Shown: piece after piece, positions 37,108 to 41,493 of the stretch
Layout of the letters: every line of letters begins with the position of its first letter
How positions within the stretch are numbered: position 1 is the first letter of the stretch
Source of the DNA: Candidatus Gastranaerophilales bacterium
GTDB taxonomy: Bacteria; Cyanobacteriota; Vampirovibrionia; Gastranaerophilales; Gastranaerophilaceae
NCBI GenBank assembly: GCA_944323705.1
Contig: CALUTM010000012.1
Span: forward strand, 1 to 41,493
DNA: 41,493 nt
Direction of reading: 5' to 3'
The notes under the pieces: model-generated
Seen by the model: the letters and a program-made list of their open reading frames with translations, nothing else
Databases searched by the model: none
What the model was told of the DNA's origin: nothing
Position numbers and translations under genes: made by a program

Positions 37108-38637
37108 ATGAATTTAGATGCCGTAATAGATAGCTTACTTTCACCCGTCGCGGACAAAGTCTCAGGCTTTATCTTTTCTTACGTTACAATAGGAGGGGTT
37201 AAGGTCGAACTTCTCGTGGCTCTTTTGATTTCAGCAGCAGTATATTTTACACTGAGAACGGGCTTCATCGGATTTTGGGGATTTAAACATGCAATAAAAT
37301 TGATTACCAATAATTATAAACACAATAACCCGAGCGGTTATCAGCGTAAAAAGAGGGGAGAATTATCCTCATTTCAAGCCTTAAGTGCGACAATTTCGGC
37401 ATCAGCCGGAATTGGTAATGTTGCAGGCTCAGCCGCTGCAGTATCCATTGGCGGACCGGGCGTTATATTTTGGATGATTATTGCAGGGCTTTTTTCCATG
37501 GCATTAAAATTTTCGGAAGTATTACTCGGGGTAAAATTCAGGAAAACAAACCCTGACGGTACAGTTGCCGGAGGTCCGATGTACTACATTCCCGCCGCTT
37601 TCGGGGGTAAATATGGGGGAAAATCCGAGAGTAAATGTAGGGGAAAATATGAGAGTAAATTAGATAATTTAAGCATTGTTTTTGGCAAAGCTCTGGCAAA
37701 AATTTATGCGATATGCTGCATTTTTGCAATGATTGGGGGTTGGAATTTATTCCAAATTAATGCGATGACAGCTCAGTTTACGGAAGTAACGGGCGGAAAT
37801 AACAGTATTTTTGCAAATAACGGTTGGATATTGGGCTCAATTGTCGCGGTTATAACCTGGTTTACGATAATAGGCGGTATTAAGGCTATAGGCAAATTTA
37901 CCTCTAAAGTTACACCTATAATGTGTTCATTATATGTATTGAGTGCTTTTTTAGTCTGCATTTTTAATATTCATCATCTGCCGGAAACAATTGTACTTAT
38001 CATAAAAGAGGCTTTTTCACCCCGAGCCGTAACAGGGGGAGCTTTTGCCTGCCTGCTCTGGGGGTTCAGACGTGCCATGTTTGCTAATGAGTCCGGACTC
38101 GGTACTGCCCCGATAGCTTTTTCCGCAGTTAATACCAACAAACCCGTTGCACAAGCATTTGTATCACTGCTTCAACCTTTCGTTGACACGGTAATAGTCG
38201 GGGTTGCAACCGCTTTTGTAATAGTTGTATCCAAAGTATATCTCAATGTTGACGGTATTGCGGGAATTGAATTAACATCCAAAGCTTTTGCTACGATTTG
38301 CCCCGCATATCCCATACTCCTAACGGTTATGGCAAGCTGCTTTGTTTTATCTACAATGCTTTGCGGTTCTTACTACGGACTGAAAGCGTGGAATTTCCTC
38401 TTTGGGGATTCAAAGTTTAAAACGAGATTATTTCAAGCAATTTATTGTATTTGTATTATTGCGGGCTCAGCAATGAATTTTCAAAGTATAATTAATCTTT
38501 CCGATGCCGTAACTCTTTTTCTTGCAGTACCCAATTTGATTGCGGTTTTTGCCCTCTCTAACGTAGTAATGAAGGAGCTTAAGCGGTATTGTGAACGCTA
38601 CAACGTCGGCGGTAAAATAGTAAAATACTTGCGTTAA
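37108..38637 (+). CDS. Alanine or glycine:cation symporter (AGCS family)
   Basis: A 509-residue inner-membrane sodium (or proton)-coupled amino acid carrier with about 11 membrane segments. AGCS landmarks are TLRTGFIGFWGFKHAIKLI, the helix ATISASAGIGNVAGSAAAVS, GGPGVIFWMIIAG, TVAGGPMYYI, WGFRRAMFANESGLGTAPIA and QPFVDTVIVG. A 16-residue insert, coded by an in-frame 24-base duplication (37609-37656: KYGGKSES then KCRGKYES), lies in the loop right after GGPMYYIPAAFGG, where other members are short. The substrate is probably alanine or glycine. The ATG has leaderless geometry. Confidence 0.9.
   Translation: MNLDAVIDSLLSPVADKVSGFIFSYVTIGGVKVELLVALLISAAVYFTLRTGFIGFWGFKHAIKLITNNYKHNNPSGYQRKKRGELSSFQALSATISASAGIGNVAGSAAAVSIGGPGVIFWMIIAGLFSMALKFSEVLLGVKFRKTNPDGTVAGGPMYYIPAAFGGKYGGKSESKCRGKYESKLDNLSIVFGKALAKIYAICCIFAMIGGWNLFQINAMTAQFTEVTGGNNSIFANNGWILGSIVAVITWFTIIGGIKAIGKFTSKVTPIMCSLYVLSAFLVCIFNIHHLPETIVLIIKEAFSPRAVTGGAFACLLWGFRRAMFANESGLGTAPIAFSAVNTNKPVAQAFVSLLQPFVDTVIVGVATAFVIVVSKVYLNVDGIAGIELTSKAFATICPAYPILLTVMASCFVLSTMLCGSYYGLKAWNFLFGDSKFKTRLFQAIYCICIIAGSAMNFQSIINLSDAVTLFLAVPNLIAVFALSNVVMKELKRYCERYNVGGKIVKYLR
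37609..37656 (+). repeat. In-frame 24-base tandem duplication inside the symporter gene
   Basis: Units 37609-37632 and 37633-37656 agree at 20 of 24 positions (aaatatgggggaaaatccga versus aaatgtaggggaaaatatga, both ending gagt). Each unit codes eight residues (K-x-x-G-K-x-E-S), so the frame is kept. It is unlike the rest of the gene in being free of hydrophobic codons. Confidence 0.75.
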
Positions 38638-40061: not shown

Positions 40062-40775
40062 TTATTTATTACAAATACTAAATTCATCTATCAACAAGGC
40101 ATATACCGTTTCGCCTTTTTTAGCTTTGTAGTGGCAACCCGGAGTAATCAAACCGACAACAAAACCGACACCGCAACCTATCGGAATACCGATAGCTAAA
40201 CCTGTACCGATTTTTGCGGGGTTAGGAATAAATGCAAAACCGACACCTGCACCCGCACCCACAATACCAAGGGTTAAGGTTGACAACGTCAATTTACCCG
40301 CTGTAGTCCAAGGACCTTCTTTGAGTTTGCAATCCTTTGTGAAAGGACGAGCCTTTATATCTATACAAGTATTGTCAGGAAAAACTATTTTTCTGAATAT
40401 AAGGCTTACGCGTGCATTCTTATTAAACCATTTCGGTTTTTCTACATTGGTAACCTCTGCAACAATTTTCGTTCCGCAGGGTAAAAGCAGAGTTCCTTCA
40501 CAGGTATACAATGCCTGGGGTACTACGAAATGCACAATATCACCCGCTTTAGAACATTTTGAAAAATACTTTTCGTCAAAAGCAAATTGTAATACGTTTC
40601 CTTTTTCAACCGTTTTACGCAGATTAGTTATTGTAACAACGTTGCAAGGAGCATCTTTATGTACGTCAAGGTGCTCTATAGCCGTAGTTTTTTCACACGC
40701 TTCTGCAAGTACGGGAACCGTATTCAAGCTAAGAATTGAAAAGGTAAATAATAGTGATAAAACTTTCTTTAGCAT
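40062..40775 (-). CDS. Exported envelope protein of unknown function
   Basis: A 237-residue protein with a clear signal peptide (KKVLSLLFTFSILSLNTVPVLAEA, cut after Ala). A beta-rich domain (about 45-165, with EACEKTTAIEHL and strands such as VVTITNLRKTVEKGNVLQFAF) is followed by a glycine-rich hydrophobic stretch (about 180-220, GIVGAGAGVGFAFIP and GLAIGIPIGCGVGFVVGLI) that could form one or two membrane-inserting hairpins. It ends with a short soluble tail. I do not recognise the family; it may be an outer-membrane or wall-linked protein. The ribosome site taggag is 9 bases from the ATG, and the promoter is clear. Confidence 0.65.
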   Translation of the reverse strand: MLKKVLSLLFTFSILSLNTVPVLAEACEKTTAIEHLDVHKDAPCNVVTITNLRKTVEKGNVLQFAFDEKYFSKCSKAGDIVHFVVPQALYTCEGTLLLPCGTKIVAEVTNVEKPKWFNKNARVSLIFRKIVFPDNTCIDIKARPFTKDCKLKEGPWTTAGKLTLSTLTLGIVGAGAGVGFAFIPNPAKIGTGLAIGIPIGCGVGFVVGLITPGCHYKAKKGETVYALLIDEFSICNK

Positions 40776-40869: not shown

Positions 40870-41022
40870 TTATATTCTACTTACATCTTCGACATCTTCA
40901 TTCTTTGCCTTTTTGTTTTCGGCTTTTTTGTCGTCCTCTTTTTCCTTGTCGTCGTCAGCTTCATTGCGTGCTTTTAGAGCTTCAATAAGCGATTCAAACA
41001 AGCCTTTTGTTTCCTTGTCCAT
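40870..41022 (-). CDS. Small highly charged protein (50 residues)
   Basis: A 50-residue product starting MDKETKGLFESLIEALKARN, an amphipathic helix, followed by 30 residues that are almost all D, E, K, N and A, likely disordered. The ATG at 41022 has a near-perfect Shine-Dalgarno sequence (aaaggagg, 5-6 bases ahead). The frame stays open upstream to an ATG at 41247, so a 125-residue form is possible. I chose the short form because the ribosome site is so good and the upstream part lacks one. No family is recognised. Abundant small acidic/basic proteins of this type may be stress or RNA-associated factors. Confidence 0.5.
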   Translation of the reverse strand: MDKETKGLFESLIEALKARNEADDDKEKEDDKKAENKKAKNEDVEDVSRI

Positions 41023-41247
41023 AGTTCCTCCTTTAAAATTGCGTATCCAATCGAATACAGGTTGATATTTATTTATTGCTTTTATTGTTGCATTGGGGTT
41101 GAAATCTGTTTGATTATCGGTTATACTGTCTTTAGACGGGTTCAAAGTCTCCGTAGCAAGTGAAGCTACGATGCTGTTTGAAGCCGTCTTTTTACGTCTA
41201 TACAAAAGTAAGACTGAAAATTTGTAGGTCGTGGCATTGCCCGACAT
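41023..41247 (-). other. Open stretch in frame with the small protein, coding status unclear
   Basis: 225 bases open in the same frame as the 50-residue gene. The first 20 residues (SGNATTYKFSVLLLYRRKKT) are coded by a palindrome and look like read-through of a repeat. The following part (TETLNPSKDSITDNQ, then NKYQPVFDWIRNFKGG) has plausible coding composition. It may be an N-terminal extension of the small protein, a decayed gene or noncoding. Confidence 0.3.
41228..41245. repeat. Imperfect palindrome gtcgtggcattgcccgac
   Basis: gtcg and cgac arms with ggca/tgcc inner pairs and one bulged t. It is adjacent to the hairpin cluster downstream on the plus strand and resembles the GTCGGGC...GCCCGAC inverted-repeat elements of several bacterial genomes. 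Confidence 0.45.
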
Positions 41248-41257
41248 TAACTTTTAA

Positions 41258-41358
41258 AGGCGAACGTGCAGCGAAGCTGCAATAGTGAGCCTAAGTGTGC
41301 GGGTTTACCCGCCTGGTATGAATGCCCGAAGGGCATAGAAAACGATTGCGTGTTTTCT
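41258..41358. repeat. Cluster of four consecutive short hairpins
   Basis: Four inverted repeats within about 100 bases: TGCAGC-gaa-GCTGCA (41267-41281), GCGGGT-tt-ACCCGC (41299-41312), ATGCCC-gaa-GGGCAT (41322-41336) and AGAAAAC...GTTTTCT (41337-41358). Two share a GAA triloop. GC content is far higher than around it. No protein-like frame is convincing on either strand. It could be a structured RNA, a repeat element or the remnant of a mobile element. Confidence 0.55.
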
Positions 41359-41416
41359 CTTTCTTTTCGTTATTGTAGCTTTTTTATTTTTAATTACCGT
41401 GTCCTACTCCTATTAA
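41359..41416. other. AT-rich noncoding stretch, nothing recognised
   Basis: Between the hairpin cluster and the direct repeats. It contains ttttttattttt on the plus strand and no clear gene, promoter or RNA motif. A nine-codon frame on the minus strand (MLIGVGHGN) begins just after the first direct repeat. Confidence 0.3.
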
Positions 41417-41493
41417 CATTTACCCCCTTTTTCTATCATGCGGACCAGTTGGGCATAAAATCCACAAACTTCATTTACCCCCTTTTTCTATCA
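41417..41493 (-). repeat. Two identical 22-base direct repeats, 33 bases apart, at the window edge
   Basis: catttaccccctttttctat plus ca occurs at 41417-41438 and 41472-41493; the second copy runs to the last base, so the true repeat could be longer. On the minus strand each copy reads tgatag, then aaaaaggggg, then taaatg: stop codons, a ribosome-site-like G run and an ATG. Between them is a 12-codon frame (MKFVDFMPNWSA). The 55-base period would also fit the last units of an array outside the window. Confidence 0.6.

Follow-up and report, generated by a model that had tools for sequence, protein, structure and literature searches.

A dispersed repeat of about 54 bp that forms tandem arrays and lies in frame within conserved genes of one Gastranaerophilales genus

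The window considered here, a stretch of 41,493 nucleotides corresponding to the complete contig C12 of a Gastranaerophilales genome (1.93 Mb, 87 contigs), carries a short run of direct repeats at its end. We consider it probable (roughly 0.7) that this run represents one array of a non-palindromic ~54-bp repeat dispersed in the genomes of one Gastranaerophilales genus, namely a selfish or neutral sequence that is prone to tandem growth, is compatible with coding and settles at GGGGTAAAT-like sites.

At the end of the window, CATTTACCCCCTTTTTCTATCA is found twice (41417-41438 and 41472-41493), the copies being 100% identical, 55 nt apart and separated by 33 nt. No longer exact direct repeat exists within the final 1000 nt of the window, and a length of 22 nt is far beyond chance, given that 500 Markov-resampled sequences yielded a maximum of 17 nt and a mean of 10.2 nt. 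Direct comparison, together with this resampling, thus confirmed the two identical copies and the 55-base period described in an initial annotation made from the sequence alone. Read on the minus strand, each copy gives TGATAGAAAAAGGGGGTAAATG, comprising the stop codons, G-run and ATG that had likewise been pointed out. The final 77 nt of the window correspond to positions 12-88 of contig C32, while the start of contig C9, where three units are present, falls within the same array. As these sister contigs begin inside the same array, the window edge is most likely an assembly break within a tandem array that the assembler could presumably not pass. The earlier suggestion that this is the edge of an array is, therefore, borne out, with further units being found on C32 and C9 as well as at numerous loci elsewhere in the genome. 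Reading beyond position 41493, partly possible from the sister contigs, revealed more units as anticipated, although not the varied spacers expected of such a continuation, since the 33-nt stretch is the rest of the unit. The features assigned at the end of the window are listed in Table 1.

Table 1. Repeat features at the end of the window.
Feature	Positions	Strand	Basis
Complete repeat unit GGGGGTAAATGAAGTTTGTGGATTTTATGCCCAACTGGTCCGCATGATAGAAAA	41429..41482	-	nhmmer E 1.3e-16; sequence-only covariance-model E 1.2e-15
Right-hand array end, a further GGGGGTAAATG running into non-repeat sequence	41417..41428	-	sequence; post-array flank GGGGGTAAATGTTAATAGGAG
Beginning of the next unit, truncated by the contig end	41483..41493	-	identity with the next unit on C32
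Larger dispersed intergenic repeat (~200 nt) enclosing the array of the window	41294..41493	.	four near copies

Near copies of the ~200-nt repeat that surrounds the array of the window were detected on C34 (98%), C53 (92%), C14 (89%) and C52 (96%), over 131-194 nt. Comparison of the window with Rfam yielded no match. Moreover, no unit was found at 80 loci around the homocitrate-synthase gene of the window in named relatives; as such, and insofar as synteny extends to the array position, the insertion in the window is not common to these relatives. Two predicted proteins adjoin the array on the minus strand (40062-40775 and 40870-41247), neither of which has a Pfam or NCBIfam match.

The unit spans ~54 nt, reads GGGGGTAAATGAAGTTTGTGGATTTTATGCCCAACTGGTCCGCATGATAGAAAAA on the minus strand, and comprises a variable middle between a conserved GGGGTAAAT and a conserved end that runs from ACTNSTCCGCNTG to AAAAA. 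In an alignment of 50 units, GGGGTAAAT was conserved, the ~25-nt middle varied between arrays, and the conserved ACTNSTCCGCNTG was followed by an A-rich end. Between the 22-mers, the sequence is conserved within an array and drifts between arrays. Every unit boundary repeats AAAA-GGGGTAAAT, corresponding on the plus strand to TTTAC|CCCC. Array sizes were determined in 100 fetched stretches, a sample from the best matches listed (95 of which hold units), to which the window was added. The 117 arrays so defined contain one (83), two (20), three (10) or four (4) units. Among 50 periods, 54 nt was seen in 17 cases and 55 nt in 18 (together 35/50), with 45/50 falling within 52-57 nt. At one locus shared by the sister genomes G074 and G007 (L226 and L227), three units are present in G074 and four in G007, with the flanks being 90 and 98% identical; judged by these sequences, unit number here changed recently. 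Although single units may appear palindromic to the eye, neither the alignment fold nor shuffle controls supported a hairpin unit: RNAalifold of the 50 units returned -0.32 kcal/mol and three pairs, none covarying, and hence no consensus hairpin, while single-unit DNA mostly folded no better than shuffles, with one of nine (L030) reaching a z of -2.35.

The genome from which the window comes holds 43 unit matches at E<=0.01 (sequence-only model). At E<=0.001, 37 of the 65 genomes examined in the genus contain at least one match, the highest number in any one genome being 49; across the order, matches were detected in 10 of 146 sampled genomes and four of 40 genera, almost all in the genus of the window. 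Many single units sit within other hairpin repeats and travel along with them, such that copy number partly reflects hitch-hiking; several adjoin AGTTCAGGATGACA.

Although the majority of units are intergenic, some were found in frame within genes recognised by Pfam as encoding a glycosyl hydrolase 3 protein (presumably NagZ or NagZ-like), a DUF34/NIF3 protein, peptidase M3, a Cys/Met metabolism enzyme (which we take to be MetY), a protein with a DnaB C-terminal domain, at the end of which the unit lies, and Omp85. A Mu-like prophage I protein also carries an in-frame array, its Pfam match being weak and below the curated cut-off. In-frame arrays occur in NIF3 of G000 and G030 and in the M3 peptidase of G075 and G076. 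The unit is read on the same strand in the GVN.. frame in NagZ, NIF3, M3 and DnaB, on the same strand in the GGK/RGK.. frame in MetY and the Mu-like protein, and on the opposite strand in Omp85. Orthologs without an insert exist for NagZ, NIF3, M3 and Omp85, the genes to which this comparison was directed, MetY, DnaB, the Mu-like protein, a terminase-like gene and L203 being left out. Specifically, a 48-residue insert is present in one of 29 aligned NagZ orthologs, with the other 28 of 28 being without it; if translated, the insert would yield peptides such as GVNETGGFDAQQVR. The M3 genes of G002 and G085 read through without an insert, with readable rows having been obtained by text pattern for seven of 30 fetched M3 loci and the remainder having been judged from broken tblastn alignments alone. 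In an alignment of 30 NIF3 proteins, nine carry long inserts at one loop, among which a clear unit pair is seen only in L248 and a decayed pair in L249; the unit-bearing NIF3 of G030 was read separately from this alignment. In that same loop, other members of the alignment (A2; L250, L251, L252, L265, L266, L269 and L275) carry inserts that differ by species, some being SPRPAGERP..GVRG-like and resembling a further dispersed repeat. Two contigs of G022, C20 and C57 (L205 and L206), both end within a unit array in a MetY-like gene, so that this gene seems to have been split by assembly.

The unit insert is predicted to form a disordered loop in both NIF3 (residues 36-76 at pLDDT <50; overall mean 79.3) and NagZ (residues 254-300 at pLDDT <50; overall 79.1), bearing in mind that low pLDDT can also reflect missing homologous rows. 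In the NagZ model, one other low-pLDDT stretch (166-177) lies outside the insert. Genic arrays present a period of 54 nt in 7/7 cases, as compared to 14/43 other periods that are divisible by three (p = 0.0012), a difference that is partly selected for because genic arrays were recognised through open ORFs. Among 120 non-genic units, the GVN frame was open in 41%, the GGK frame in 5% and the third same-strand frame in none, while opposite-strand frames were open in 40-49%. The element is, therefore, not open in all frames, and the copies found in genes represent a filtered subset. Translational bypass, which occurs in yeast mitochondria, need not be invoked, given that each genic insert is free of stops in the frame in which it is read.

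Sites that are unfilled in relatives offer a view of where units settle. The M3 site in the unfilled genomes G002 and G085 already reads GAAAAAGGGGTAAAT, identical to the unit junction, and several relatives read TGGGGGGTAAAT at the NIF3 site. At the NagZ site, unfilled relatives instead read GGTGTGAAA or GGAGTTAAA, not GGGGTAAAT. In M3 of G076, GGGGTAAATGAAATTTTAGAGGCTCAA is followed by a 27-nt core and then by GGGGTGAATAAAATTTTGGAGGCTCAA, such that the core is flanked on either side by a copy of the sequence after GGGGTAAAT. In M3 of G075, the duplication covers ~21 nt and the unit is present twice. Across 21 independent arrays, obtained from 24 pairs by dropping near-identical flanks, the post-array flank is similar, over positions 9-26, to the beginning of the first unit (0.442 versus 0.335 for mispaired flanks, sd 0.026; 0/2000 reaching the observed value). 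The duplicated sequence clearly belongs to the host only in M3; in Omp85, a host origin of the flank could not be established, as the region differs in the nearest relative. Finally, NIF3 of G009 and G083 contains short GVN duplications without any core, and hence the GGGGTAAAT motif seems duplication-prone by itself.

Based on these observations, we propose that the unit, which we infer to be selfish, settles where a GGGGTAAAT-like sequence is already present and that, once settled, it may expand or shrink in tandem because AAAA-GGGGTAAAT recurs at every unit boundary. As 54 nt amount to 18 codons, open in a minority of frames, a unit could persist in a gene when landing in an open frame, with the extra 18-residue blocks then forming a disordered loop. 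Movement of copies would probably involve template switching or short-homology recombination at GGGGTAAAT, and not a dedicated transposase. Copying through short homology at GGGGTAAAT is favored by the presence of the motif at unfilled sites, the flank duplications, the core-less GVN duplications and the change in unit number between G074 and G007. No insertion event of the unit was observed among the genomes compared, and no enzyme mobilising it was found.

Of the alternatives, an integrase of unknown type that inserts a ~27-nt core and duplicates a ~27-nt target beginning with GGGGTAAAT, thereby creating the 54-nt period, is unlikely, even if it accounts for the 27-nt target copies that flank the 27-nt core in M3 of G076 and for flank similarity extending past the 9-mer in the 21 arrays. 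A fixed 27-nt target duplication was rejected, being exact in that one M3 gene and of only ~21 nt in the M3 gene of G075. In addition, outside M3 the similarity fades between positions 8 and 27, with the average profile decaying gradually, which lends no support to a target duplication of fixed length; nor was a candidate enzyme apparent. It is similarly doubtful that the unit represents a new class of micro-element in which a hairpin-less 27-nt core is integrated by some enzyme at GGGGTAAAT and copies ~27 nt of target, with each insertion adding a frame-preserving 54-nt tandem unit. Were this so, the chemistry of such a micro-element would be like that of spacer acquisition, except that repeat and spacer would trade places.

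The position of units relative to genes bears on whether the unit is a functional DNA or RNA signal, such as a translation start region, a terminator or a protein-binding array, multiplied by selection. In a crude ORF test of the 117 arrays, nine lie inside an ORF of >=100 residues, 67 fall between a pair of ORFs, with all arrangements represented, and 41 lack an ORF of >=100 residues within 800 nt on one side. Between co-oriented genes, the unit is on the gene strand in 25 of 36 cases, a bias that a signal could explain, as it could the resemblance of AAAAAGGGGGTAAATG to a ribosome site and the fact that units precede start codons in several places. We nonetheless deem a signal improbable, since 28 of the 65 genomes of the genus have no match, units occur in every gene arrangement and inside genes, and no structure was detected. 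The idea that the repeat is a duplicated gene junction holds at most in part; units are often intergenic and GGGGGTAAATG looks like a ribosome site, yet no gene is duplicated here.

That the unit is a non-autonomous element moved by a Y1 transposase of the IS200/IS605 or RAYT type, akin to REP/BIME sequences, is more doubtful still. The TTTAC at each boundary recalls TTAC, the target of IS608-type elements, and a Y1 protein is encoded in 36 of 65 genomes of the genus. However, the presence of the unit and that of Y1 are unrelated across these 65 genomes (22/15/14/14, p = 0.46; Spearman 0.02), no Y1 match was found in G030, which holds 49 units, or in G077, G015, G026 and G087, and the consensus hairpin is missing. 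A row of very small genes, as had also been raised on the basis of the stop, G-run and ATG at each minus-strand copy, or one of leader peptides, is highly improbable. The tiny frames reported at the end of the window, of 12 (MKFVDFMPNWSA) and nine (MKFVDFMPN) codons, do exist, but neither is conserved; overall, an AAATG start is present in only 67 of 160 units, 22 of these 67 run straight into a stop codon, and the peptides of the others vary. A CRISPR array, suggested by identical 22-nt repeats at 33-nt spacing, has a negligible probability, as the inter-repeat stretch is uniform along the array with no different spacers, and arrays occur inside genes.

Among known systems, Rickettsia palindromic elements are dispersed in intergenic regions and also, in frame, in conserved genes that are unrelated to one another, where the protein tolerates them (PMC10969869; PMC2229807). 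The unit shares with them its in-frame presence in unrelated conserved genes (NagZ, NIF3, M3, MetY, DnaB and Omp85). It differs in size (54 nt as compared to ~105-150) and in having no consensus palindrome, as opposed to a palindrome or long stem-loop, as well as in its tandem arrays, GGGGTAAAT-like landing sites and Gastranaerophilales host. As such, the unit works like a Rickettsia palindromic element but, in terms of palindrome and size, is not one. PARCELs (palindromic amphipathic repeat coding elements) are tandem repeats of coding sequences that are thought to be mobile (PMC2996958); they encode 25-residue amphipathic repeats in ORFs without assigned function, with dyad symmetry. By contrast, the present unit provides 18-residue blocks inside known enzymes, is non-coding in most copies and has no consensus hairpin. 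REP/BIME sequences are short, high-copy and intergenic, and sometimes stand in rows; the unit does not share their hairpin, nor does it correlate with Y1 as expected of REP/RAYT. Bacterial MITEs, such as ERIC, Correia and RUP, are small, non-autonomous repeats, some of which are read in frame (PMC2229807). These are of ~100-200 bp and mostly have terminal inverted repeats, as compared to the unit of ~54 nt. Open-licence papers on repeats or mobile elements of Gastranaerophilales/Melainabacteria, and on in-frame or palindromic repeats, provided no description of the unit.

Rickettsia provides the best-known example of repeats inserted in frame into conserved genes of bacteria (PMC10969869). The present element would represent another such case, phylogenetically distant from Rickettsia; its unit is much smaller and grows in tandem, such that stepwise gain or loss of 18-residue loops by proteins could result. 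Given how one NIF3 loop presents several different inserts according to species, loop acquisition is directly comparable across the 65 genomes. Arrays of the unit also explain contig breaks in these assemblies.

In a Mu-like prophage region (L184; G087:C7:53500-69500), units lie at gene junctions, some providing a stop codon, and a second repeat of ~70 nt, sharing the ends GGGGTAAATCAGG and GTGTAAAA, is present. A single such region is insufficient to name phages as the vehicle of the unit. Searches of viral contigs for a phage origin returned no hits for two exact patterns and one for a third, by eye a chance match in an unrelated GC-rich contig.

Elsewhere in the window, an amino-acid carrier gene (37108-38637) contains ~19 extra in-frame residues (GGKYGGKSESKCRGKYESK..) that start at GGGGTAAAT (37604-37660, plus strand). 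This insert consists of 24-nt repeats, with the region spanning 54 residues here versus 34-41 in 40 aligned orthologs. As it is without the TCCGC core, it is a motif-anchored duplication and not a unit.
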